Of a stretch of 44,279 bases of DNA, positions 2,784 through 27,328 are shown one piece after another (within the stretch, counting starts at the first letter, position 1; each line of letters begins with the position of its first letter). The stretch lies in assembly GCA_003345555.1 (NCBI GenBank), contig PRDJ01000012.1:1-44279 (forward strand). The letters are read 5' to 3'. Source of the stretch: Candidatus Thorarchaeota archaeon. Its GTDB lineage: Archaea > Asgardarchaeota > Thorarchaeia > Thorarchaeales > Thorarchaeaceae. Position numbers and translations under genes: made by a program. A model generated the notes under the pieces. The model saw nothing but the letters and a program-made list of their open reading frames with translations, made no database searches and had not been told where the DNA came from.

Positions 2784-3335
2784 TCAGACCTGCTTGCTTT
2801 GCCTCAGTGATTGCAGGGTCATTCGACATGAGATTGCAGCATGCAAGAATATCTCGCTCACGTTCTGCCCAGTTTTCGCACTTGCCTCGAAGTATTGCAT
2901 TGACAGAAGCTCTGCCAAGTCTTGTCCTTCTTGCGATGTCAAAGCAAGCTTCTGAACCATGTCTGCCTTGTTGCCAACGAGGGAGCCCGTGAGGTGCATT
3001 CCGGGTGATGGGCATGCTCCCTGCGTAATCGCATCATACCACTTTGGAACTTCCTCGAAAGTTGGTCGGTCCGTCATGTCAAATACTAGAATAAGGTGAT
3101 GCGTTCCTTGATAGAAGCGATTTCTGAGAGAAATGAAAGACTGTTGACCGGCCAAGTCAATTACATCAAGAACCACCTTGCCGTCAGGGAAGTCAAGAGA
3201 AGCCACGTTCATATCAACGCCGATTGTGGCAGTGTACTGCGGCTCGAATCTGCCAGAGAGGTATCTCCGAAGAAGAGATGTCTTGCCCACATTTCGAGGA
3301 CCTGCAAGTATTATCTTGAAGACTTCAGTGGGCAA
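2784..3335 (-). CDS. Ras/Rab-like small GTPase (Asgard eukaryotic-signature type)
   Basis: Small GTP-binding protein of the Ras superfamily. From the TTG at 3335 it has 183 residues. All G motifs are present: P-loop GPRNVGKTS (12-20), switch I Thr in TATIGVD (Thr37), DLAGQ (60-64) with the Gln equivalent to Ras Gln61, NKAD (122-125) and SAK (152-154). The TIGVD effector loop is Rab/Ran-like rather than Arf- or MglA-like. There is no C-terminal cysteine, so no CaaX or CC prenylation site. The frame is open to a GTG at 3395, adding 20 residues with no homologous look. The TTG is preferred because AAGGGTGG lies about 9 bases upstream and the product then starts just before the first beta strand, though the longer form cannot be excluded. 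Such families are expanded in Asgard archaea; the role here is unknown. Confidence 0.88.
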   Translation of the reverse strand: MPTEVFKIILAGPRNVGKTSLLRRYLSGRFEPQYTATIGVDMNVASLDFPDGKVVLDVIDLAGQQSFISLRNRFYQGTHHLILVFDMTDRPTFEEVPKWYDAITQGACPSPGMHLTGSLVGNKADMVQKLALTSQEGQDLAELLSMQYFEASAKTGQNVSEIFLHAAISCRMTLQSLRQSKQV

Positions 3336-3608
3336 TACTCGGAACCACCCTTGGTTGACACCGGCTGCGACGGGTTCACTTAAGAGAGTTCCCACGACGT
3401 CTGTTCAAAAGCCAGGTATCTTTTCACTGCTATGCCGCAAACAAAACCTGTTTGTTGCTTCGTAAAGAATTTCAGTGTGTTCAACCCGGACAACCCCAGA
3501 CAAGGTGACACCCGGCACTGGCGACAATGAAATCGGCTTTGGCCCTTTCATCACATGCCTTGAACAGCTCCACGGATCAATGGAGAGGTAAGTAAGGAGG
3601 AAGAGACG

Positions 3609-4793
3609 ATGAGAAAAGAGGAAGCAGCAATCAGGAAGGAAGAGGAGAAGATTAAGGAAAAGGAGGAGAGGATGCTTTCATCGTTTGCACACTCGTTCAG
3701 TCTATTCTGGGCATCAAAGCGACTGAGATGGTTAAGCGTAGTTTTTGTTTTTGGTCTGATTTGGACGACATTCATCTACAGTTATGGTCCGCATGTTATA
3801 CCAAGTGGCATTCTTCTTACCTTGACAATACTGACCGGCGGTCTATGGCCTTTCTTCTTCATGCTAGCAGCCGCTTTGGCGTTACTACATTTGGAACGAC
3901 TTATTGCAAGTCAGACATCCTACCGCAAGTCGTTCTCGATTCTGCTACCATGGCTTGCACTAAGCGGCTATTTGGTGCTGGTTGTCTGGACTCGTTTCTT
4001 GGCAGCGTTTCTTCTCTTGATATTTGGCGTAGCTTTCTTTGGTTGGGTTTCATTCCAAGCATTCTTTGCCACCAGAACCAGTCTGCACTACGCAGACGAT
4101 GTATACATGAAATCGCATAATCTGCTGATCAAGGGCCTCGCGGTTCTCAGCAATTTCTTCTGTTACGCAGCGATAATCGGGTCCTTCTATTTCACCGTCT
4201 ATGTACTGAATCCTTCTGAAATCCTTAATCAGCCCAGAGAAATTCCGCTAATCGTAGGAACTGTATTTGCCCTCGGTTTCAACTTCGCCAACTTCCTCTA
4301 CATGGTGAGGCATCGTCACACAACGATTCTCGACAATCTCGCTTTATTCGGCTTGTTCATCTCGCTCTACTCTGCCTATTTCATCTACGAAGCTGGCAGA
4401 CCCATTACCGTTGGCATCAACTGGGTCTCGGTATCAATCTCCGTCTTTTTTGTAATCTATACTATGGGCTCAGTTGGCGAGACCCTTAGAGAGAAATCAC
4501 ACATCCGCGCCCATTGGACATTGACAGCTGAGTCTTCAGCCGCCCTAACTTTCTTTCTCGCTTCGGGTTACTATTTCGCTGATGCGTTTCTCTCGGTATT
4601 GTTCGCAGAACCAGCGCTTGCTACAGCCATTGGCGTTACATTCAAGCTACTCATCTTTCCCTTCGTGGCTGTTTTGACAGAAGCACATCATATGATAACG
4701 CGAGTCGGGGCTCCCCCTGAGCGGACTCTGGTGCCGGATCAGATTGAGAGTGGTCCGGGCTCAACTGAGGGTGGTACGAGCAGTCTTCAGTGA
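3609..4793 (+). CDS. Polytopic membrane protein with charged N-terminal helix, unknown function
   Basis: 394 residues that I do not recognise. The first ~26 residues are a highly charged Lys/Glu helix (repeats of KEE, likely cytoplasmic and coiled-coil-forming). About ten hydrophobic segments follow, roughly spanning residues 35-375, and a short Gly/Ser-rich polar tail. The start is well supported by a strong Shine-Dalgarno sequence (AAGGAGG) about 9 bases upstream of the ATG. The gene is divergent from the small GTPase, with about 270 bp between starts, and is followed after 113 bp by a thioredoxin-like gene on the same strand. No enzyme motif or transporter signature is evident. It may be a sensor-like or structural membrane protein, but nothing in the sequence fixes this. 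Confidence 0.75.
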   Translation: MRKEEAAIRKEEEKIKEKEERMLSSFAHSFSLFWASKRLRWLSVVFVFGLIWTTFIYSYGPHVIPSGILLTLTILTGGLWPFFFMLAAALALLHLERLIASQTSYRKSFSILLPWLALSGYLVLVVWTRFLAAFLLLIFGVAFFGWVSFQAFFATRTSLHYADDVYMKSHNLLIKGLAVLSNFFCYAAIIGSFYFTVYVLNPSEILNQPREIPLIVGTVFALGFNFANFLYMVRHRHTTILDNLALFGLFISLYSAYFIYEAGRPITVGINWVSVSISVFFVIYTMGSVGETLREKSHIRAHWTLTAESSAALTFFLASGYYFADAFLSVLFAEPALATAIGVTFKLLIFPFVAVLTEAHHMITRVGAPPERTLVPDQIESGPGSTEGGTSSLQ

Positions 4794-4906: not shown

Positions 4907-5404
4907 TTGGTCGACCTGCGGAGCATCAGAGACAGGACGAAATCGGCAACCGAGTACATCGAATCCCTTCCTGAGAGTGAGAAACAGGGCTTCTTGGACG
5001 TGTATGAGGACTATCAGCTGGACTTTGGAATCGTTGAGGCATTAAGGAAGCTCGCTAGGGACGTGACAATCGTGGTTCTCAGTGCAGGCTGGTGCAAGGA
5101 CTGCAAGAACGCTATTCCCGTTCTAGCACATCTTGAGGAAGAGATTGACCTCGATGTCAGAGTGTTCGGTGGTATAAAGACCGCTCCGCTCGACCCCAAA
5201 CATAAGTGGGCCATACCTCCCTCTCCCCCTGAGGTTGAGGAATGGAAAGTGAAGGCGATACCTTGGATTGAGATCTTCGACAAGAGAGGAAACAGGGTCG
5301 GGACAATCATTGAAAAGCCTACGGTAAAGACCACACTAGAAGCTGAGCTGCTATATGTTCTGGAAAACAAGACACGGCCGCCTTCGAAACGGCAGACGAA
5401 CTAG
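4907..5404 (+). CDS. Thioredoxin-fold protein with WCKDC active site
   Basis: 165-residue cytoplasmic thioredoxin-superfamily protein; no signal peptide. The redox motif is WCKDC, within LSAGWCKDC at about residues 60-68, in the usual position after the first core beta strand. The cis-proline loop is probably the KAIPWIEIFD segment (about residues 117-126). The extra ~45 N-terminal residues are helical and charged. Expected activity is thiol-disulfide exchange or bacilliredoxin-like reduction; the partner is unknown. The start is TTG at 4907 without a good ribosome-binding site, so the N-terminus is less certain than the family. A small hairpin (5439-5456) lies shortly after the stop. Confidence 0.85.
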   Translation: MVDLRSIRDRTKSATEYIESLPESEKQGFLDVYEDYQLDFGIVEALRKLARDVTIVVLSAGWCKDCKNAIPVLAHLEEEIDLDVRVFGGIKTAPLDPKHKWAIPPSPPEVEEWKVKAIPWIEIFDKRGNRVGTIIEKPTVKTTLEAELLYVLENKTRPPSKRQTN

Positions 5405-5754: not shown

Positions 5755-8169
5755 ATGAACTTTAGAGCGAAGTACGCGCTCCTTGCCGTGTTCATCGGGG
5801 TCACTCTTGTGATGCCGATGTGCGCCGGGAGTGCGACAAGCACGCCTCGTCTGAACTCTTCTGTTCAAGAGTCGACCGTTGATGGCCCAGAAAGCATTCA
5901 GGCCATGGAAGTCGTGGACTCATTTATAGATCCATGGGGTGGAGTATACAACGTGGTTGGCGGTGCTTACAACGCCACTCAATACGGGTTCTCCCACATA
6001 ACGGCGCTCCAGAACGTAGTGAAGAATCAGATGCAGAACGATGACGGATATGTCAGCATGTCGGTGTTCGAACTGAGCGGCATGACGGCATTTCCGAATG
6101 GAGTTGTCGGTGGGCCCACAGCTATGCTGGAGATTGTCGTCAGCCCAGTGATTATCGTACCGACACTGAGAGAGAATACCTATTTCGCGGACCTTTCCCA
6201 AGCTGAAGCAATAGCCCTCGCTGACGCAGTCGCAGCGACCTACGAGACCGCACTCACAATTGACCTACAGAGATTCATGACAGTCCAGACGGAGATAACT
6301 TTCTCCTTCTCTTACGACATATACCCGAGTGTCTTCTGTGAGGGCATTTCGTACATGATGACCTATATGGCTCTCTTGACAGCTGACCAAGGTATAGCCG
6401 CAATGAATGCCCTATTGGCCAGACTAGCCAGTCTGGGCGGTGTAATGTCCCTCTTAGGAGCACCCAACTGGCCCGAACTACTCACTTCGGCAGTGGAGAC
6501 TTACATCCCGCACCATTTCATGCCACATTATGAAACATCCTATCCAATGGTTATGAACATGTTCGGCAGCGTAGGCAAGCCCTACATCAGATCTGGAAAT
6601 GTCAATGACACTCAGACAGTCCAGTCGCTGGTGGTTGCGGGTGCAGCCTTCAACTACCCCGGGTATGTCACAGCAGTGGATGGCAATGAGACTTATTCAC
6701 TGAAGACACATGTTGGCTACACCGGAAACATTGAGAACAAGATGCAGCAAGACAGCAGTGCCATGTCAATCTTGGCTTTTGGAGGTCAGGCACCTAGCTC
6801 TCTCACTATGTATGGCATACCGGCCGGGTGGCTAAGAGTCAACGACCAGTTCCAACTGCCAGCCAATGTTACCATTGGCGATTTCACCATTCCAGCAAAC
6901 AGCACCATTTCTGACGCTATCCGTATGGTACTCTCATACCTGCCCCGGCAGGGCGCGCTATCCGTGAACGAAGGCATTGGCGGACTCAACAACACGATGC
7001 TTGATTTCATCGCCGACTTCTGGAGTTCGCCGGGCCTATTGATAGATCTCAGGGATATGGTCCTGGCTCTCAACTACACACTTACAACTCCAGTAACAGA
7101 GATGAACTACGATCTGTTGGCATCCATGATGAGAAGAGCTGGGATGACACCGGATACTCTAGTCAGCAAGATCGATTCAACTCTCGCAGCCAAGTCGCCA
7201 GTTGGTGCCTTGGTCAAAGCCTTTGTGGGATACTTCGATAGCTATCACGTCCTGGACATTCTCGAAGCCGACAACTATGCCAACGCTCCTGCTTTCGCGG
7301 CATACTTGAACACCTTCATTGGCGGTGTCGAGAAAGCTCTGCACGACTTCGGCGGCCTCGACGTGACTACCCAATTCACGACCAAGGAAGGGATAGCTAC
7401 TTTCGTTGAGGAGCATTGGGGTATTGTGTTGCAGGCTCTGTGGACGGCAATGGCTGCCAATGACCTGCCAGGAGTCAAGAGTGCTTTTCACAACATCCTC
7501 GACCCAACAAACCTTCAGGAACATATCACTCCGTACTTGATGGCAGATCTTGGTTCCTCACTGATCGCTGGCCTCGGCTTCCAGTTTGCAGTCAACTTCA
7601 ATGGAACAACATTGTTCCCCTTGTCAACTAGTGATCTGAGCCTCAGCTTCGAAGCTGACCCCGCGTCACTCGACATTAACGGCCCGTACTTGGCTATCGT
7701 CAAGGGTACCAGCACGAGAACCGTCACAGAAGGACAGATTGTCACCTTCAACATTACAGTGCACAACTATGGTGACGCAACTGCTTACGACGTGAAGGTT
7801 CTTGACGGCATTTGCGCGGGTCTAGACGGAGAAAGGCCCTATTACTGGACTAAGTCCACGTTGGCCGCAGGTGAAACCTGGTTATTTGACTATCAGGTCA
7901 CGGCAAGTGACGCAGGTCTCTACATGGACATGCCTGCCATTTGCGTCTACTTCAACCAGAGCTTGAGCACTTTTGACCCAGCTGCTGCAGAGAACTGGAC
8001 CGGCAGTGCCAGATACACTCTTTCAGCAATAGGCTACCAGATACTTGTCGAGGGCGGAAGTTGGTGGCCGTCTACACTCTTCGGCATCCCCACTCTCTAC
8101 GTAGTCGCTGGCGTTGGCGGTGTCGCAGTGTTGGGCGTGGCTTTGCTCGTCATTAGAAGAAGAGGGTAG
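5755..8169 (+). CDS. Large secreted, membrane-anchored surface protein, paralogue 1 (unknown family)
   Basis: 804 residues. An N-terminal signal peptide (Lys/Arg-containing n-region, hydrophobic core, then a Cys-Ala-Gly-Ser-Ala cleavage region near residue 25) and a C-terminal transmembrane helix with Arg-Arg-Arg at the extreme end predict a large extracytoplasmic body anchored at its C-terminus. More than ten Asn-X-Ser/Thr sequons suggest N-glycosylation. Most of the ectodomain looks alpha-helical and matches no family I know. Residues ~640-760 resemble a DUF11/CARDB-type beta domain (FNITVHNYGDATAYDVKVLD). The ATG at 5755 is chosen over an open frame back to 5635 because GAGGAGAAG precedes it and the signal peptide starts there. 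The next gene encodes a clear paralogue. Role might be S-layer-associated, adhesive or substrate-binding; none is demonstrable. Confidence 0.85.
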   Translation: MNFRAKYALLAVFIGVTLVMPMCAGSATSTPRLNSSVQESTVDGPESIQAMEVVDSFIDPWGGVYNVVGGAYNATQYGFSHITALQNVVKNQMQNDDGYVSMSVFELSGMTAFPNGVVGGPTAMLEIVVSPVIIVPTLRENTYFADLSQAEAIALADAVAATYETALTIDLQRFMTVQTEITFSFSYDIYPSVFCEGISYMMTYMALLTADQGIAAMNALLARLASLGGVMSLLGAPNWPELLTSAVETYIPHHFMPHYETSYPMVMNMFGSVGKPYIRSGNVNDTQTVQSLVVAGAAFNYPGYVTAVDGNETYSLKTHVGYTGNIENKMQQDSSAMSILAFGGQAPSSLTMYGIPAGWLRVNDQFQLPANVTIGDFTIPANSTISDAIRMVLSYLPRQGALSVNEGIGGLNNTMLDFIADFWSSPGLLIDLRDMVLALNYTLTTPVTEMNYDLLASMMRRAGMTPDTLVSKIDSTLAAKSPVGALVKAFVGYFDSYHVLDILEADNYANAPAFAAYLNTFIGGVEKALHDFGGLDVTTQFTTKEGIATFVEEHWGIVLQALWTAMAANDLPGVKSAFHNILDPTNLQEHITPYLMADLGSSLIAGLGFQFAVNFNGTTLFPLSTSDLSLSFEADPASLDINGPYLAIVKGTSTRTVTEGQIVTFNITVHNYGDATAYDVKVLDGICAGLDGERPYYWTKSTLAAGETWLFDYQVTASDAGLYMDMPAICVYFNQSLSTFDPAAAENWTGSARYTLSAIGYQILVEGGSWWPSTLFGIPTLYVVAGVGGVAVLGVALLVIRRRG

Positions 8170-8188
8170 TCCCTCTAGTGCATACCCA

Positions 8189-8233
8189 GGTCGCGCGTCG
8201 TTCGTGACGGCGCGCTGACCCTTCTCTTTTTCT
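8189..8233 (+). terminator. Hairpin plus T-rich tract between surface-protein paralogues
   Basis: A GC-rich imperfect stem bounded by GGTC (8189-8192) and GACC (8217-8220), with inner GCGCGTC and GACGGCGC arms around a GTTCGT loop, is followed at once by the pyrimidine-rich run CTTCTCTTTTTCT. This looks like a transcription terminator for the first surface-protein gene, so the second paralogue probably has its own promoter. Confidence 0.6.
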
Positions 8234-8334
8234 CACGTTTGTCATCAACCGTATCAACCGGGTCTGTTGGACATAGGGTGAATTGAAAGAGACAATTCCG
8301 TGTGTTGCCGATCCGATTCAGTTTGCGTGTGTTC

Positions 8335-8352
8335 GGCATATCTTCATATGCC
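8335..8352. promoter_or_regulatory. 18-bp dyad with TATA-like core upstream of surface protein 2
   Basis: Perfect inverted repeat GGCATAT-CTTC-ATATGCC. Its AT-rich arms could provide a TATA element, giving a transcription start around 8365-8370, and the symmetry would suit a dimeric regulator. The only upstream ATG of the following frame (8348) lies inside this dyad, which argues against that ATG being the real start. Confidence 0.4.
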
Positions 8353-8452
8353 ATCGACTCGGTTGCCCTGTGCTCGTGATAGATTGACCAAAGGGCGACG
8401 GCATCCCAACCGCAGGATAGCCCACAGAAGCGAAGTCACCGCAGCCTTTGCA

Positions 8453-10858
8453 GTGAGGCACTTACTTCCAGCAGTATTCCTGAGTGCCTGCCTTTTGTTT
8501 TCTAGCGCGGCAGCAGGTTTCGCACAACTACAATTGACAACCCTTGGCACATCACTACAATCCGGTTCAACGCTTGGCCCAGCTGCGATTGAGTTGATGG
8601 AAACCCTCATTGACCCTTGGGGAGGCGTACACAACATGATTGCCTCGGTGCAGAACGGAACTCATTATGGCTATCCCTCTGTACAGGCCTTAGAGGCAAT
8701 TGTCAATCACCAACTTGCGTTCGACAGCGGATATGTGGCGGAGATTGCCTTCGTGCTTCTCGGAAAGACCATCTTCCCCAACGGCGTAATCGACGGACCG
8801 ATGGCAGTGATGCAGCTCCAGATTGAGCCTGTGTTTGTGTGTCCCGCCAATCGAGCAGATGCAGCATTCGCGAATCTAACGCAGAATGAAGCCATAACTC
8901 TAGCGCAAGAAGCAGTGTCAGTCTATCAAACAGCTCTTTCAATCGATCTTGAGAGACTCATGATGATCGAGTCACAGGAGCATTTCTACTTCAACCTCAG
9001 TCTTGCTCCCGGGGTGGACTGTTACGGTAAGGGTTACTGGCTAACTTACGTTGGCTTATTCATGAATGAGGAAGGCAGCGCCGTTACGAGTGCTTTTAGA
9101 CAGCGCCTTGCCGCCCTTGGTGGGTTCATGAATCTCGTCGGTGCGCCGAAATGGCCTGATTTGGCGACAATCGCAGCCGAGGGATACATGTCTTGCTACT
9201 CTCTCCCAGATTACGACTCTCGGGGTTCGGTTGTCGACATGCTTCTCAAACACGTTCGACCTTTGATTAGGTCCGCGCATCCGGATCTCGAAGGGAGAGT
9301 TCAATCGGTCATTGCCGGCGTAGCAGCATTCAACAAGCTGAATCAAGTGATGCCGGGACCGGGCGAAGAAAGTTACTCTCTCAAGAGCGACGTGGGCTAT
9401 TCTTCTGCCATCATGAACAAGATGCAGCAGGACATTACTGCTGCGGCCGTCTCGATGGTTGGCGCCGAAGCACCGGGGCACTTGACCGTCGACGGGCTGC
9501 CTTCGTCATGGCTGTCTGTTGACAACGAATTTCCCAATCCCACCAATATCTCGCTGCCCGGAGGATTCGTTATTCCTGCAAACATGAGCGTGGCCGAGAC
9601 GGTGCTCATGCTCCTCGGCTCCATTCCCAAACAGCTTGCACTGGATCTGAATTCGCAGATTGGCACAATTCAGGCTGACACTCTTGATCAATTGCTCGAA
9701 GATATCTGGGGAGGAGGCGGTTTCCCCTTGGATCTCAAGGCATTACTGCTTGCCCTTGACTACTCCACATTAACATCCCCCGTCATCGACATAAATTACG
9801 ACACCCTAGCAGCAATAATGAGGAGAGCTGGCTTGACTCCAGACACACTAATCGACCTGATTGACCCTTCAGTCGCAGAAGAGAGTCCCGTTGGTGCAAT
9901 AGCAGAGGCTTTTGTCAAGTACTTCGACAGCTACAGAATACTGGACATACTGGAGGCAGACCATTACACTTCCCCGTCCGAGACACTAGGCTATCTGAAC
10001 CCCTTCATCCAAGGACTGGAGCAGGCGCTCCATGACATCGGCAATATCGATATGCCTTCGGAAGCAAGAACCAAGGAAGGCTTGGCCGCCTTTGTCGAAA
10101 AGCACTGGGACATCGTGCTGGGAGCGTTATGGAGTACCATGGCGGGCGGTAATCTCACTGCAATACAAGGCAGCCTGCATGCTATCCTCAATGTTACCAA
10201 CCTGCAGGAACACATTACGCCATACCTGATGGTTGACCTTGGCTCGCCCCTCATTGCTGGCACAGGGTTTGTCTTTGCCACAAACTACGAATCGAGCACT
10301 GGCCAGTTCACGGGGATGTCGGCAGATGATTTGAGAACTGTCTTTGATTTAGATCTCCAGAGACTTGCTTTCGACGGACCGTACCTTATTGTGGCCAAGC
10401 ACACTGACAGTGGGTCATTGCTTCTTGGGCAGAACGCGAATTTCACGATAGAGGTACACAACTTTGGAAATGAGACAGCTTACGACATCAAGGTTTTGGA
10501 TGGCGTCAGCTCAGGTTTCGATGGCCAACGTCCCTACTACTGGACCAAAGACGCACTGGCACTAGGTGAGAGCTGGGTAATCAACTATACAGTAAGAGCC
10601 AACGATACAGGTTTGTTCCTTGACATGCCAGCGATCTGCATATACTTCAACACAACTCTGAGCAGCTTTGACCCGGCTCACCCCAGTAACTGGACAGGAA
10701 CGGCGAGATATACGTTTTCAGAATTCGGTCACGAGATCAGAATCGAGGGGCAGAGTGGCTGGCAAGCTTGGCCTGTCGAGTACTCAATCGTGGTATTAGG
10801 GTGTGCGGCCGCGCTGGCCCTGGTGATATGCTTAGCACGAAGGCGCCCACACTCCTAG
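8453..10858 (+). CDS. Large secreted, membrane-anchored surface protein, paralogue 2 (unknown family)
   Basis: About 801 residues from the GTG at 8453, colinear with the preceding gene's product throughout. Shared landmarks include a DPWGG segment just after the signal peptide, a YFDSY-x2-LDILEAD block, LQEHITPYLM and a near-identical C-terminal domain with PYYWTK and DMPAIC. It has a signal peptide (hydrophobic core ending Ala-Ala-Ala-Gly-Phe-Ala), many sequons, a DUF11/CARDB-like domain and a C-terminal membrane helix followed by an Arg-rich tail. The frame is open to 8300 with an ATG at 8348. The GTG is preferred because it gives a normal-length signal peptide, whereas the ATG would add a 35-residue Arg-rich leader and lies in a dyad. 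No strong ribosome-binding site is visible, so the start is uncertain. Function is unknown. Confidence 0.83.
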   Translation: MRHLLPAVFLSACLLFSSAAAGFAQLQLTTLGTSLQSGSTLGPAAIELMETLIDPWGGVHNMIASVQNGTHYGYPSVQALEAIVNHQLAFDSGYVAEIAFVLLGKTIFPNGVIDGPMAVMQLQIEPVFVCPANRADAAFANLTQNEAITLAQEAVSVYQTALSIDLERLMMIESQEHFYFNLSLAPGVDCYGKGYWLTYVGLFMNEEGSAVTSAFRQRLAALGGFMNLVGAPKWPDLATIAAEGYMSCYSLPDYDSRGSVVDMLLKHVRPLIRSAHPDLEGRVQSVIAGVAAFNKLNQVMPGPGEESYSLKSDVGYSSAIMNKMQQDITAAAVSMVGAEAPGHLTVDGLPSSWLSVDNEFPNPTNISLPGGFVIPANMSVAETVLMLLGSIPKQLALDLNSQIGTIQADTLDQLLEDIWGGGGFPLDLKALLLALDYSTLTSPVIDINYDTLAAIMRRAGLTPDTLIDLIDPSVAEESPVGAIAEAFVKYFDSYRILDILEADHYTSPSETLGYLNPFIQGLEQALHDIGNIDMPSEARTKEGLAAFVEKHWDIVLGALWSTMAGGNLTAIQGSLHAILNVTNLQEHITPYLMVDLGSPLIAGTGFVFATNYESSTGQFTGMSADDLRTVFDLDLQRLAFDGPYLIVAKHTDSGSLLLGQNANFTIEVHNFGNETAYDIKVLDGVSSGFDGQRPYYWTKDALALGESWVINYTVRANDTGLFLDMPAICIYFNTTLSSFDPAHPSNWTGTARYTFSEFGHEIRIEGQSGWQAWPVEYSIVVLGCAAALALVICLARRRPHS

Positions 10859-11068
10859 TTGTAGCCGGGGTCTGGAACTGATGACCTCTCATGTTTTCCT
10901 CCGAGATGTCCCAATCGATACAGTATGGGTCGAATCTGCCCAAATGAACCCGAATTTGGCACTTCAGGACGACCTACGCGAAGCCTTTTATTGCGACTGC
11001 GCTCAGCCCGTGTTTATAGGACGACCCAAGAAACCGTTCTAGATTTCCGAACAATAGGAGATTTCGTA

Positions 11069-11380
11069 ATGCCTAAGAAACCAGAAAAGAAGACCCCTCC
11101 TGGGCAAGCGAAGAAGCCAGCTCCTAGCCCTGCAAAGCCAGCTCCAGCTGCCCCAGCGAAGCCAGCTCCCCCTCCGGCAAAGCCAGCTCCCGCTCCGGCC
11201 CCTACGCCAGCCGGTGCGTTCGAGAAATGGGAGTGCCAAGTCTGTGGTTACATCTACGACGAGGCCAAGGGAGACCCCGATGGCGGGATCAAGCCTGGCA
11301 CTAAGTTCTCGGCACTGCCGGATGATTGGGTATGCCCCATGTGCGGTGCTTCCAAGGAAGACTTCGAGAAAGTCAAGTAA
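11069..11380 (+). CDS. Rubredoxin with N-terminal Pro/Ala/Lys-rich extension
   Basis: 103 residues. The C-terminal ~53 residues are a canonical rubredoxin: Cys56-x2-Cys59-Gly-Tyr and Cys89-Pro-Met-Cys92-Gly bind one iron, with the [12 protein letters not shown] and LPDDWVCP segments typical of the family. It is a one-electron carrier for oxygen or peroxide reductases and related oxidoreductases. The N-terminal ~48 residues are a low-complexity tail built from PAKPAP-like repeats with clustered lysines, unusual for rubredoxin and likely extended and cationic. The start is the ATG at 11069, with AGGAG about 9 bases upstream; the frame upstream lacks homology. No redox partner gene is adjacent. 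A strong terminator follows. Confidence 0.93.
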
Positions 11381-11438: not shown

Positions 11439-14171
11439 TCACCTGTTGCGGCCGGCCTCCCTCAAGAGGCGAACAACGTCTGTATTGACCGCTCTCTTCG
11501 TCACGTAGTATACAGCGAGGAGTGATGCAATGAGGGAGAGGACAACCAAGAAGAGAGTCCTAAAGTCAGCTATGATAAAGAGGCCGCCACTGAAGTGAAT
11601 CACCAAGTTTCTCAGTGCGAGCTCAACTCCAATGCCGGCGGCGCACCCTAAAATCACTCCGGATATCATAGGAACTGAACTCTCAGCTGCAAGTGTCCGT
11701 GCAATCTCTTTGTCCCTCATGCCGAGGGATGCGAGCATTCCAAGTTCTCTTCGGCGTGATGATGAGACAACCCAGCTACTGATTAAAGCACTGACTAACG
11801 CAGATGCGAAAAGCGATATCAACGAGGCATCAATGAGTATCTCGATTGAACGCAGAGCTGACACATAATCGGCCTCAAGAATCGAGACCAGAACGGGGTA
11901 AGCGCCCGGCACCGAGAAGAGCTCCTTGATGACTGCCGCGGGATCAGTGGACTCGATAAGCAGACTGCCAGCCTTGAATGGTTCTCCTCGAATGATGCCC
12001 CAAGTCTCCATGCTCACTATAACAAAGGTCGGCTCTACGGTCGAGAGCATGAAGACTGGCACTGCTGATTCGCTTATTGCGACGACCGTCAGATTCGCAA
12101 TGGCACCTACATGCACAGTATCTCCAAGACCGAGACCAAGAAAGTTAGCCGCATACTCTGATACTGCACAGGACATTGGTTCCAAGATGACATCCAAACC
12201 GCGCGTGAGATTGACAGACTGAAGAATTCCTAGCGACGCCAGCCGCTCCAAACCATGGGGCTCAGCTCCCATGAGAAGGCCATCTCCGAACAGCGACGAA
12301 TGCCATATGATTTCTAGGGCCTGATTCATTGGGACAACAGTCGTGATGTTGGGAATACTCTGGATTTCTGATATAATCTCTAAGTCAGCAGGTGGGTTCA
12401 TGTAGACAACTACATTCGCAGACGTAGTCTGTCCCGCAATGTTCCTCTTCCATGATTCCGTTATCACATATCCAACATTGGTGGATGCGAAATATAGGAC
12501 AGTGGAAGAGGCAAACAGGTTGAATACTACTAGGCCTGCAAGGGTGTTTCGTCTCAGATTCCTACTCGAAAGGATCCTCACGACCTCCGATGCGCCTACC
12601 ACGGCAGGCCAAAGAAACCTGCGAGAACTTGCAAGGTTCGGTGAAAGGGCGGCTACTAACAGGATTAGCGCCGGAATCGAGAGTATGCGAATTGAGGCTA
12701 TCTCAATGATGTGCAAATCGAGAAAATCAGAGACTGCTTGTAGTGCAACAATGGATGTAAGCGAGACAGCGACGGTGCCCACAGCCGCCCGAACTCGTTT
12801 TCGACCTGACCTAGAGAGCAAGCGGCCAGCCCCGGCAGGGGGCAGGGCTCCCGACCCGAGACTAGTGGCAACGGACTCCCTAGATGCGCGCCAAGCTGGC
12901 AAGTAGCCCGCCATTAAGGTCAGGGCAATACCAAACAGACAAGCTATAATCACACTGAGAGGGTCTACGGTCGCAAGACTCCTGAAGTATTGACTCATAA
13001 TACCGACATAAGTGATTCGAGCGAGAAGGACTAGGAAGTTGAGGACAACAGTGCCAATCACGAGACCAAGGCCGATGCCCAATGCGGCTCCGACGATACC
13101 GATTGTGCCGACTTCTGCAAGAAGAAGAACCAGAACATTTGATCTCGAAGCCCCGAAAGCAAGGACCACGCCAGTCTCGTAGCGCCGCTGACTGAATATC
13201 ATCGCGAATGAGGAGAATACCCTGAACACTGCTGTGAAAGATGACACAGCTACAAGTGCTAGCAGAACTGTCTGCGCTTGGCTAAGGAACAGTGATGAAA
13301 GCTTCAGGGGATAGACCTTGAGATTGGTGACCGTGAAACCCTCGCCGCACACTGCCTTTATGTAGTCTGTAGCGGCGGGTGCTGCAAAGACATCATAGAG
13401 CTCAATCAGTAACTTGTTACTGGAGTGTGCTTCGTATCTTATGCTGTAGATCTCCCATGCTCGCTCTAACGATATGAAAACCACAGGGCCGATGACTCCT
13501 TTGTCAATGGCGAGACCGTAACCTGTTATGTTGAAGAAAGCAGCGGCAGCACTTGTGTGTAATGTGAGAAGATCGCCCAACGAGACATTCAACAACTCGA
13601 TGGCGTCCATTGTCAGAAAGCACCCGTCGCCTGAGATGTCAAGAGAACCAGCTGTTGCGTTCAAACTGCCTATGCCAGATTCACTTTGCAGGTCGAGGCC
13701 CACCAGGAATACGTAGATTCCGCTGGTGAGATTCTCATACGTAGCATATTCCTCTATTCTGGGAATCGCTCTCATCACACTGGGTCCACTAAGTATGTCT
13801 GACCTCATTTGTGTAGTAATCGGCTGCCCCCACCTCGTAGCTGACACCGATATGTCTACAGGGGAGAGTGTTGCTTTCAGAAAGAGGTTGGCGCTGTTCT
13901 CTAGGCTGCTGCTGGCAGAGAGAGCAGTATAAAGAAGACTCACCGAGATGGCAATCGACATCACCGTGACAGCGGCTACTCTCTTCCGTCGCAACGCGTT
14001 TCTGAAACCTATGCGAGCCAGCTCTCGTACCAAAGTCTTCTTGGTTCCGTCGTGGTGATGGATTGGAACTGACCCTAGTACCTTTTCAAGATTCCACTTA
14101 CGAACCGCCCCATTTGCCCGGGCCCGTCGAAAGGTCCTTATGGGCCGATACACGAGGTCGACAATTAACAT
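11439..14171 (-). CDS. FtsX/MacB-type ABC transporter permease (large, two FtsX units)
   Basis: 910 residues. The N-terminal part (RIGFRNALRRKRVAAVTVMS) is the classic start of a MacB/LolE-type permease: basic cytoplasmic helix, TM1, ~200-residue extracytoplasmic domain, then three TM helices (~300-410). After a linker of two hydrophobic segments a second unit repeats the plan (RRNTLAGLVVFNLF, ectodomain, three C-terminal TMs), giving about ten TM helices. Such proteins move lipids, lipoproteins or peptides, or transmit mechanical force, using a separate ATPase. No ATPase gene of that type lies nearby, so it is an orphan here. The ATG at 14171 has no ribosome-binding site and gives an unusual ~50-residue leader; a TTG near 14033 (Leu before Val-Arg-Glu) is an alternative. 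It is divergent, by 20 bp, from the next gene. Confidence 0.88.
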   Translation of the reverse strand: MLIVDLVYRPIRTFRRARANGAVRKWNLEKVLGSVPIHHHDGTKKTLVRELARIGFRNALRRKRVAAVTVMSIAISVSLLYTALSASSSLENSANLFLKATLSPVDISVSATRWGQPITTQMRSDILSGPSVMRAIPRIEEYATYENLTSGIYVFLVGLDLQSESGIGSLNATAGSLDISGDGCFLTMDAIELLNVSLGDLLTLHTSAAAAFFNITGYGLAIDKGVIGPVVFISLERAWEIYSIRYEAHSSNKLLIELYDVFAAPAATDYIKAVCGEGFTVTNLKVYPLKLSSLFLSQAQTVLLALVAVSSFTAVFRVFSSFAMIFSQRRYETGVVLAFGASRSNVLVLLLAEVGTIGIVGAALGIGLGLVIGTVVLNFLVLLARITYVGIMSQYFRSLATVDPLSVIIACLFGIALTLMAGYLPAWRASRESVATSLGSGALPPAGAGRLLSRSGRKRVRAAVGTVAVSLTSIVALQAVSDFLDLHIIEIASIRILSIPALILLVAALSPNLASSRRFLWPAVVGASEVVRILSSRNLRRNTLAGLVVFNLFASSTVLYFASTNVGYVITESWKRNIAGQTTSANVVVYMNPPADLEIISEIQSIPNITTVVPMNQALEIIWHSSLFGDGLLMGAEPHGLERLASLGILQSVNLTRGLDVILEPMSCAVSEYAANFLGLGLGDTVHVGAIANLTVVAISESAVPVFMLSTVEPTFVIVSMETWGIIRGEPFKAGSLLIESTDPAAVIKELFSVPGAYPVLVSILEADYVSALRSIEILIDASLISLFASALVSALISSWVVSSSRRRELGMLASLGMRDKEIARTLAAESSVPMISGVILGCAAGIGVELALRNLVIHFSGGLFIIADFRTLFLVVLSLIASLLAVYYVTKRAVNTDVVRLLREAGRNR

Positions 14172-24135: not shown

Positions 24136-25725
24136 TTGACAGAGCTGCGCACGGAAATCTCGCGAGTGACCATCTTCAGGGATGGAGCCCGAGTTACTCG
24201 CACGGGCAAGGTGTTACTGGATTCCGGGACCCAAAGGGTGCTTGTGGGTGGTATTACGGAATACGCGCATGAAGACAGCTTCCGAGTAAAGGGCTCGGGT
24301 CCAGCTACTCTATCGAGCATTGATGTCAGAAGAACAGTGGAGACCTACGAACCCAAGAGCGACCTGAAGCCCTTGCTCGATGAACTCAAGAAGCTCAATT
24401 CGGAACGCGAAGCGACAGCTGATGAAATCGCCATATTCAGCGGTCGGCTGTCGTATCTTGAAGCCATGAACGCGGCGTTTGCTGGCAACTTTGGTCTTCT
24501 CTTCGCCGCCAGTGAAGCAGAGGTTTCTCAGTTGACCGAAATGGATACAGTCTCGGGTCGAAGCATAGTCGAAACGAAGAGCAAAATCCGCGAGCTCGAG
24601 AAGAAACTGAGGGACATTGACGACAGAATCAACTCAGTGAAGAAGAATCTTGGAAGAATCGAATCTGAGAAGAAGACTGAGAGTTTCTTCGAAGTCGAAA
24701 TAACTATCGACGTGTCGAAGAAGGCACAAGTTGAGCTCGAAGTCACTTACCAAGTTGCAAACACAGGATGGCGCCCGAGTTATGATTTAGATCTTCTTCC
24801 GGGTTCGGCGAAGCTAAGGAGAGTAGCTCTGCTATACAACCAGACTCGAGAGCCATGGCAAAAGGTAGCCCTAACTGTCTCAACTGCCACTGCAAAGCCA
24901 GTTGAAGCAGTCGAAGCCAGTCCCTTCTACATTACAGCTTACGACCCCGAAGAAGAACGCCGTCGAATGCGAGCTATGAAAAAGGAGATGGCACCGAAAA
25001 TGAGACCTCCTCCTCCGCCCGCAACAATGGCAGCTCCAGCTCCGTCTATGGCGCCACCAGCTCCAAAGCCAGTCATTTCTGAACAGCTTGCACAAGTCTC
25101 CGAACTCGCATCAGGCATCTCAGTATATGAGCTGCCTAGCCGGGTCACGGTTCCCTTTGGCAACGACGAGCATCCATTCACGCTCCTCGAAGAGGAATTG
25201 AAGTCGTCGACAATCCATTACTGGTATGCCGATGGTATGCCAGAGCCAGTAGCTCAGGACGAAGTCACAAACGGTGACACAGTCATATTGCCCGGGAAAG
25301 TGAAGGTCTATGCAGAAGGGGACTACATAGGCGAGTCGACCGTATCACAGATATCGCCTCGAGAGAAGTTCAAGATGGGTACTCGGGTTGCCTATGATGT
25401 GAAGGTAAAGAAGAAGCTCACTTCCCGGGAGATAGAGAAAGCAGGCATAACCCGCGGTAAACTGAGAAGGGCTTACTCGTATAGTCTGGAGATTGAGAAT
25501 TTCGGAAAGACGCCCATCAAGATTGAGGTGTATGATAGAGTACCCCACAGCCTTAACCCATCTATCGAGGTCAAGGGCAATTGGGGTCAGCATCAGCCGG
25601 AGAGTAGTGAGCTTGGAGTGATAAAGTGGAGCCTCGATGTCGAGCAAATCAAGAAGAGGCAAATCGACTACAGCTACGAGGTTCTGTGGGAGCGAGGCAT
25701 CACCATAAGCCCACCATTGCCGTGA
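24136..25725 (+). CDS. DUF4139 (MuiA-like) protein, paralogue 1
   Basis: 529 residues of the DUF4140/DUF4139 family, named after mucoidy inhibitor A; biochemical role unknown. The N-terminal domain opens with VTIFRDGARVTR, the hallmark of the family. A Lys/Glu-rich coiled coil follows at ~80-185, then the DUF4139 beta-rich domain with VTYQVANTGWRPSYDLDL. A Pro/Ala/Met-rich linker (~290-320: stretches of PPPPP and APAPS) splits DUF4139, and the C-terminus (SPREKFKMGTRVAYDVKVKKKL and the YSLEIENFGKTPIKIEV segment) is typical. No signal peptide or membrane helix, so the protein is probably cytoplasmic. TTG start. It is followed with about 10 bp spacing by a paralogue; the two form an operon. Confidence 0.9.
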   Translation: MTELRTEISRVTIFRDGARVTRTGKVLLDSGTQRVLVGGITEYAHEDSFRVKGSGPATLSSIDVRRTVETYEPKSDLKPLLDELKKLNSEREATADEIAIFSGRLSYLEAMNAAFAGNFGLLFAASEAEVSQLTEMDTVSGRSIVETKSKIRELEKKLRDIDDRINSVKKNLGRIESEKKTESFFEVEITIDVSKKAQVELEVTYQVANTGWRPSYDLDLLPGSAKLRRVALLYNQTREPWQKVALTVSTATAKPVEAVEASPFYITAYDPEEERRRMRAMKKEMAPKMRPPPPPATMAAPAPSMAPPAPKPVISEQLAQVSELASGISVYELPSRVTVPFGNDEHPFTLLEEELKSSTIHYWYADGMPEPVAQDEVTNGDTVILPGKVKVYAEGDYIGESTVSQISPREKFKMGTRVAYDVKVKKKLTSREIEKAGITRGKLRRAYSYSLEIENFGKTPIKIEVYDRVPHSLNPSIEVKGNWGQHQPESSELGVIKWSLDVEQIKKRQIDYSYEVLWERGITISPPLP

Positions 25726-25735
25726 GGTGAACCAG

Positions 25736-27328
25736 ATGAGCACGAATCTAGAGACAAAGGTAACGAGTGTGACCGTATTCCGAGACGGAGCAAGAGTGAC
25801 CAGGACCGGTCTAGCACACGCGACTCCCGGAGAGCAGTCCTTCATCATTTCAGATATCACTGGCTATGCTCAAGATGACAGCTTCCGCGTCAAAGGTACT
25901 GGTGCAGCGGCACTTAGGGGAATCGACGTAAAGAAGAAGCAGCTGACCTTCGAGCCAGCAGGAAGTCTAAAGGAACTGAAGGCAGAACTGGAGAAGATAG
26001 AGAAACGGAAGGTTTCTCTGACAGATCTCATAGCTTACCAGGAGTCTCGCGTGGCCCAGCTGACTTCGATAAGCAAACAGTTCTATTCCGAATTCGGCAA
26101 GTGGTACGCCGCGAAGGAGTCGAAGATGGATCAGATGACTGCTATGGACAAGGCTTCCATGGAGCTTCTGCGCGATGCCAAGAAGAAACTCAGAGAATCA
26201 AGAGAAGAACTGAAGGAAGTTGAAGCCAAGTACAATGCAATTCAGTCCAATATCAGCAGGGTACAGGGCGAGCGACGCACGGAGACAGTTACAGAAGTCG
26301 CGGTCACTCTCGATGTAACTGGGGAGACAGATATCCGACTCGACCTCACGTACCAGCTCAGCAATGCTGAATGGGAACCGAATTACGATGTGGACATCGC
26401 AGACAAGAAAGCTCGGATTAGAAGGATCGCCATGGTTTCGAACCAGAGCTTGGAGGAATGGACTGATGTGGCCCTCACTGTTTCCACCGCGTCTGCAAGA
26501 CCTGTTGAGGCAGTGAAAGCTGAACCATTCTACATAGATGTCTATCAGCCAGTCGTTCTTCGTGCAATGGCTGCTGAAGCAGGCGGGGCTGGGCGACCTA
26601 TGCCACGCGAGGCAGCCGATAGAATGATGATGGTCGAAAAGGAGGCTGGGGAGGAGGCGCCGCCGGCCGCTGAGGAGATGGCCGAACGCTATGCTGAGAC
26701 TACGGAGTCGATCAGTGGCACCGTGATGTACGAGCTGCCGGGCACTGTTACCATTCCCTCTACGGTCGAGCCACACCCCATTACTCTTACCGAGGAGATG
26801 TATGATAGTAAGCGGCTCCATTTCTGGAATGCCTATGCCATGCGAGAAGTGGTTGCTCAGGACGAGATAACCAATGGAGATTCTGTATTGCTGCCAGGCC
26901 CAACGAAGGTCTATGCGGCGGGTGACTTCATTGGTCAGACCTACCTAGCAATGATAGCACCGAGGGAGAAGTTCCGTCTGGGCACAAGAAGCGCATACGA
27001 TGTCAAAGCAGAGAAGAAGCTCCTAGCGAAGGACACAGAGAAGGCTGGTATCTCAAAGGGCAAGAGAAGACGCGAGTACAAGTATCGTCTGGCATTCAAG
27101 AACTTCGCGAAGGAGAAGATAGAGGTAAAGGTCGTGGACAGGATTCCGTACAGCAGCAGTGAGAAAGTCACCGTCTCGCTGCAAACACCTTCCATCCCTT
27201 ACGAGAAATCTGAACTGGGTATCATTGAGTGGAATGCTGCGATTGAGCCCGCGAAGGAACTCAGCATAGATTACGGGTTCGTCGTTGAGTGGGAACAACA
27301 ACTGGAGATACGACCTCCCTTGCCGTAG
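25736..27328 (+). CDS. DUF4139 (MuiA-like) protein, paralogue 2
   Basis: 530 residues, colinear with the preceding protein: VTVFRDGARVTR at the N-terminus, coiled coil at ~80-185, LTYQLSNAEWEPNYDVDI, an internal linker that is Met/Glu/Ala-rich here and not Pro-rich, and the C-terminal APREKFRLGTRSAYDVKAEKKL block. Both proteins end with the same short motif, Pro-Pro-Leu-Pro. The ATG at 25736 is preferred to the GTG at 25727 because GAGGTG lies 6 bases upstream. Two different paralogues in tandem suggest a heteromeric assembly through their coiled coils, but this is inference. Cytoplasmic by absence of export signals. Function unknown. Confidence 0.9.
   Translation: MSTNLETKVTSVTVFRDGARVTRTGLAHATPGEQSFIISDITGYAQDDSFRVKGTGAAALRGIDVKKKQLTFEPAGSLKELKAELEKIEKRKVSLTDLIAYQESRVAQLTSISKQFYSEFGKWYAAKESKMDQMTAMDKASMELLRDAKKKLRESREELKEVEAKYNAIQSNISRVQGERRTETVTEVAVTLDVTGETDIRLDLTYQLSNAEWEPNYDVDIADKKARIRRIAMVSNQSLEEWTDVALTVSTASARPVEAVKAEPFYIDVYQPVVLRAMAAEAGGAGRPMPREAADRMMMVEKEAGEEAPPAAEEMAERYAETTESISGTVMYELPGTVTIPSTVEPHPITLTEEMYDSKRLHFWNAYAMREVVAQDEITNGDSVLLPGPTKVYAAGDFIGQTYLAMIAPREKFRLGTRSAYDVKAEKKLLAKDTEKAGISKGKRRREYKYRLAFKNFAKEKIEVKVVDRIPYSSSEKVTVSLQTPSIPYEKSELGIIEWNAAIEPAKELSIDYGFVVEWEQQLEIRPPLP

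Follow-up and report, generated by a model that had tools for sequence, protein, structure and literature searches.

FtsX-type permeases transmit ATP-driven movement to an extracytoplasmic partner (mechanotransmission), as in FtsEX-EnvC and YbbAP-TesA, where the partner is a soluble hydrolase or activator. Type VII ABC permeases are recognised by an FtsX domain, MacB-like ectodomains and 4 or 10 transmembrane (TM) segments. In YbbP, the 10 TM helices and two ectodomains follow the order TM1, ectodomain, TM2-7, ectodomain, TM8-10 (PMC12646458). DUF11/CARDB surface proteins (PF01345, PF07705), found in archaea and bacteria, carry one Ig-like domain, placed next to the membrane and followed by a C-terminal TM helix. 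An Ig-like domain, a TM helix and a short basic tail also make up TRAP-beta (SSR2, PF05753), a part of the translocon whose chains are about 160 residues long. TRAP subunits have been reported widely in Asgard archaea (PMC10307638, PMC11417166).

The window analysed here, a 44,279-nucleotide stretch of Thorarchaeota DNA, encodes two adjacent members of a surface-protein family, SURF1 and SURF2, and close to them an FtsX-type permease (Table 1). SURF is a genuine, undescribed and clade-restricted family of familiar overall architecture, which is duplicated at this locus. In the literature searched, no description of the family was found, and no paper joins Thorarchaeota and FtsX. SURF resembles the DUF11/CARDB surface proteins in the placement of its Ig-like domain, but these have no counterpart of its ~600-residue ectodomain in any library searched.

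Table 1. Coordinates of the SURF genes, their parts and their neighbours in the window
Feature	Position	Strand	Basis or remark
Ras-like small GTPase	2784..3395	-	PF00071, 2e-41; conserved neighbour
TM430, unclassified polytopic membrane protein	3609..4793	+	frequent upstream neighbour of SURF
Thioredoxin-like protein	4907..5404	+	PF14595; conserved neighbour
SURF1, 804 aa	5755..8169	+	ORF and translation
SURF1 signal peptide, about residues 1-26	5755..5832	+	hydropathy segment 5-28; in all orthologues
SURF1 ectodomain, residues 46-642	5890..7680	+	no known family, no internal repeat
SURF1 Ig-like domain (DUF11/CARDB/TRAP-beta-like), residues 643-760	7681..8034	+	PF01345, PF05753, Foldseek
SURF1 conserved tail FGIPTLYVVAGVGGVAVLGVALLVIRRR, residues 775-803	8077..8163	+	conservation; family-specific
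SURF1-SURF2 intergenic region, ~280 bp	8170..8452	.	T-rich run ~8222-8236 after SURF1
SURF2, about 801 aa	8453..10858	+	SURF1 paralogue; probable GTG start
SURF2 ectodomain	8579..10375	+	no known family
SURF2 Ig-like domain and TM helix	10379..10840	+	PF05753 TRAP_beta match covers both
Rubredoxin with proline/alanine-rich N-terminal extension	10925..11380	+	NF045768, 91.5 bits, over cut-off
FtsX-type permease, YbbP-like topology	11439..14171	-	about 10 TM, two ectodomains; co-distributed with SURF

The SURF1 start codon is an ATG with GAGGAG upstream, and SURF2 most likely starts at the GTG at 8453, directly ahead of a good signal peptide. Neither ORF is interrupted or truncated. A preliminary description of this DNA had them encode adjacent archaeal proteins of ~800 residues with the same architecture, and this holds: the proteins are full-length paralogues that align end to end (45% identity, 65% positives, 708 bits), their origin is Asgard (Thorarchaeota), and a surface topology is supported. 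The four sequence blocks given as conserved between them are all present in both, namely YFDSY-x2-LDILEAD, which reads YFDSYHVLDILEAD in SURF1 and YFDSYRILDILEAD in SURF2, LQEHITPYLM, PYYWTK and DMPAIC. SURF1 and SURF2 each comprise, in order, a signal peptide, the ectodomain, one Ig-like domain and a TM helix, and end with the basic tail RRR. Hydropathy agrees with the claimed signal peptide, C-terminal TM helix and basic tail in both proteins: each has a TM-like segment towards either terminus and ends in basic residues. A signal peptide and a C-terminal TM anchor are seen in all nine full-length family members, these calls resting on hydropathy segments. SURF1 has orthologues in 12 other genomes, and in the closest orthologous pair dN is low relative to dS (0.062 and 0.717; dN/dS 0.09), which indicates that SURF1 and SURF2 are real genes. 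By this comparison of coding sequences the family is under strong purifying selection. A promoter and a terminator of its own had also been ascribed to each gene. This was not established, as a promoter scan around the SURF genes, not modelled on archaeal promoters, gave a count near chance (8 against 5.0 +/- 2.2).

The ~600-residue ectodomain has no match in Pfam, NCBIfam, PHROGs or the PDB sequences, searched with single sequences and, where tried, with a profile. The preliminary description had recognised no family for it, and no confident match to a characterised family turned up. PDB sequence matches to azurin and chlorite dismutase (E about 0.2) are read as chance. Self-comparison of the SURF1 ectodomain found no repeat, which rules out an internal duplication. 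Structure prediction performs poorly: the AlphaFold2 model of full-length SURF1 from seven sequences has a pLDDT of 35, and a model of residues 381-804 has a mean pLDDT of 46 and was treated as weak in searches. In these poor models the first half of the ectodomain looks mixed alpha/beta, and the earlier picture of a mostly helical ectodomain fits the second half only. Two N-glycosylation sequons (N73 and N734 of SURF1) are invariant in the nine full-length sequences, and the mature part of SURF is strongly acidic; both features are consistent with an exposed glycoprotein.

The best conserved stretch of SURF is its tail, with the consensus FGIPTLYVxAGxGGVAVIGVAxLLVRRR in orthologues. With SURF2 and the g6 copy set aside, the orthologues have a mean pairwise identity of 79% in this tail, against 44-53% in the ectodomain. 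The SURF2 tail is 32% identical to that of SURF1, compared with 76-79% for the orthologues: SURF2 has lost the conserved stretch, its TM helix having been rewritten. The full-length motif was seen in SURF proteins only, other matches being generic TM ends. No exosortase/archaeosortase (PF09721) scored over the cut-off in the 47 genomes of the window's GTDB family, in a search that detected its positive control. Since the tail is not shared with unrelated proteins and the enzyme was not found, an archaeosortase (CTERM-type) sorting signal was rejected and the tail is taken for a TM anchor with an interacting role.

SURF is found in 13 of these 47 thorarchaeal genomes, a count that includes one (G022) where no more than the C-terminal 29-31 residues are seen, next to a 100-N gap. 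The search covered 228 genomes of the phylum, and SURF is absent from the remaining 181. A profile of the family found five matches in contigs where an earlier two-sequence query had found none; the matching contigs are mostly labelled Thorarchaeota, and one is labelled Lokiarchaeota. In one genome lacking SURF (G018:C621, locus L043, 7956-8189), a SURF-related C-terminal fragment lies near a 100-N gap and is either a remnant or an assembly artefact. The SURF gene is interrupted by the edge of a contig or by a gap in five genomes (L017, L014, L015, L016/L021 and L045), which may be more often than chance would give; strain variability or repeats are possible causes.

Every other SURF-bearing genome shows a single copy, and no third copy was found in the window's own genome (93% complete). 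In the tree, SURF1, SURF2 and a partial copy from a sister species cluster together (86/93), and the SURF2 branch is the longest of the three (0.81 vs 0.46). This grouping and the long SURF2 branch point to a duplication within the lineage of this genus as the most likely source of the pair. The preliminary description saw in the retention of both copies a possible heteromeric surface structure. The two genes are indeed adjacent, on the same strand and full-length paralogues, but the single copy elsewhere argues that neither retention of two copies nor an obligate heteromer is a property of the family, and SURF2 lacks the conserved TM helix. An obligate SURF1-SURF2 heteromer is therefore highly unlikely.

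Translocon components offer another comparison. The DUF11/CARDB-like domain proposed earlier was confirmed, DUF11 (PF01345) scoring 33.7 bits in SURF1 and 26.6 bits in SURF2 against a curated cut-off of 24.6; it matches all nine full-length members at E up to 1. TRAP-beta also aligns with SURF over the Ig-like domain, the TM helix and the short basic tail, in a borderline profile match and in a low-confidence structure. In the genome search PF05753 is barely over its cut-off of 22.4 in both genes (SURF1 22.5 bits, SURF2 23.1 bits), and in SURF2 the match spans the Ig-like domain and the TM helix (profile 18-170 of 178); by hmmscan the pair scores 20.3 and 20.8 bits, below the cut-off. Foldseek with the C-terminal SURF1 model ranks TRAP-beta chains at the top (E 1.6e-5) and a CARDB domain within the top ten, the model being of low confidence as noted above. 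With TRAP subunits encoded by Asgard archaea, SURF could on these grounds be a TRAP-beta-like translocon component with a large extra ectodomain, helping the biogenesis of secreted glycoproteins. This is very improbable, even a little more so than the heteromer. The DUF11 score exceeds that of TRAP_beta, and the patchy presence of SURF in a single GTDB family is unlike that of a core translocon part. Furthermore, PF05753 also matches in Methanosarcina and is not specific, which is why SURF is not called TRAP-beta; TRAP-beta as a small protein with only an Ig-like lumenal domain was rejected, as SURF, at about 800 residues, carries about 600 extra ectodomain residues. A 540-aa protein in 40 of the 47 genomes fits TRAP_beta better than SURF does.

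This 540-aa protein (G000:C16:794-2413, minus strand, locus L107) has the same architecture as SURF, with a signal peptide, an ectodomain, a CARDB/TRAP_beta-like domain and a TM helix. No other protein of the window's own genome matches PF05753 better, and it may correspond to the so-called thorarchaeal TRAP-beta. It differs from SURF in being near-universal in the family. Profile comparison (96.8%) shows that the two share the Ig-like domain and TM region; the alignment covers these parts only, so homology of the ectodomains was rejected.

The gene order TldD, TldE, Ras-like GTPase, thioredoxin, TM430, SURF and FtsX permease is recurrent, and here the rubredoxin gene is placed between SURF2 and the permease. 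TM430 has no Pfam or NCBIfam family. It is near-universal (44 of the 47 genomes), usually with a second, distant paralogue, and it was rejected as a functional partner since it occurs with or without SURF. Several genomes without SURF retain it in place beside the thioredoxin or the GTPase, which marks TM430, thioredoxin and GTPase as bystanders. The Ras-like GTPase adjoins the thioredoxin and the membrane protein in many genomes. Elsewhere in the window (24136-27328, plus strand) there is a tandem DUF4139/DUF4140 pair, also paired in most relatives read.

The permease has the order described for YbbP, TM1, ectodomain, TM2-7, ectodomain and TM8-10. PF02687 (FtsX) matches it twice and PF12704 matches twice in its L022 orthologue; its profile matches the LolF, LolE, YtrF, MacB and BceB structures. 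It thus has the FtsX domain, MacB-like ectodomains and 10 TM segments of a type VII ABC permease. Unlike in YbbAP-TesA, FtsEX-EnvC and other type VII systems, no ATPase subunit adjoins the permease in the window or at the other loci read. A further difference is that the putative partner, SURF, would be a large TM-anchored glycoprotein instead of a soluble protein.

SURF and the permease are co-distributed. Over the 47 genomes, 12 have both, one has SURF only, two have the permease only and 32 have neither (Fisher p = 2e-8, kinship ignored). At the level of genera, seven have both, six have neither and none has one alone (p = 6e-4). Corrected for kinship on a proxy tree, three to four independent contrasts are left, all concordant and too few for significance. 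The discordant genomes, G031 with SURF and G028 and G014 with the permease, are 74-87% complete. The two genes lie within about 5 kb of each other in 7 of the 12 genomes, and they are co-present though unlinked in G020 (about 330 kb apart) and G011 (about 26 kb). In G060 and G022 the pair is found away from its usual neighbours. No such pattern is seen for the other conserved neighbours; given TM430 in 44 genomes, location alone fails to explain it. The preliminary description regarded the SURF pair as the strongest candidate here for an undescribed system; a stronger lead, the co-distribution with the permease, had been missed.

These observations suggest a model in which SURF1 and SURF2 would belong to the thorarchaeal cell surface as type I membrane glycoproteins, exported by the signal peptide and anchored by a single TM helix, the RRR tail acting as stop-transfer signal. 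The TRAP-beta/CARDB-like Ig domain would sit beside the membrane, with the ~600-residue ectodomain facing outward. SURF would be the extracellular partner of the YbbP-like 10-TM permease, whose ATP-driven motion may reach it via the conserved Gly-rich TM helix and the Ig domain and alter the state of the ectodomain, so that it binds, releases or assembles at the cell surface. After duplication SURF2 diverged, most in the TM helix, and probably acquired another ligand or another partner. The data show the architecture, the reality of the genes, their taxonomic range, the duplication and the co-distribution; that SURF and the permease are partners, in which direction they act and with what output is inferred. 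The reading of SURF as a membrane-anchored protein that partners a type VII ABC permease on the outside of the cell, with SURF2 duplicated and diverged, is offered tentatively and is somewhat more apt to be wrong than right; SURF2, without the conserved tail, speaks against it. Distinctly less probable is the full proposal that Asgard archaea have a novel sort of type VII ABC system, with a YbbP-like permease acting conformationally on a large TM-anchored surface glycoprotein with a TRAP-beta-like domain, duplicated and diversifying here.

Alternatively, SURF may act on its own, as an adhesin, a receptor or a structural coat glycoprotein, the link to the permease reflecting only that both genes were inherited together with an accessory region. 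Archaeal surface proteins typically have such an architecture, and cultured Asgard cells bear many and complex surface proteins with no ordered S-layer (PMC9834061). Where the genes are near each other, joint gain and loss of the region explains part of the pattern, and independent contrasts are few. However, co-presence persists where the genes are unlinked, and the other neighbours are present regardless of SURF. A stand-alone SURF comes close to an even chance of being correct. Compared with the permease partnership it takes fewer assumptions but leaves the unlinked co-presence unexplained, and it is about as likely or more so.

Thorarchaeota are relatives of the microbes that gave rise to eukaryotic cells. 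The surfaces of Asgard archaea are thought to be relevant to syntrophy and to pre-eukaryote contacts, and most of their proteins are unclassified. SURF is one such family that is now given a defined range, an anatomy and a candidate partner. If the link of SURF to the permease is true, relatives of eukaryotes would have an ATP-powered means of controlling their surface proteins, and the domain of SURF that lies next to the membrane and resembles TRAP-beta would be informative about the origin of that translocon subunit.
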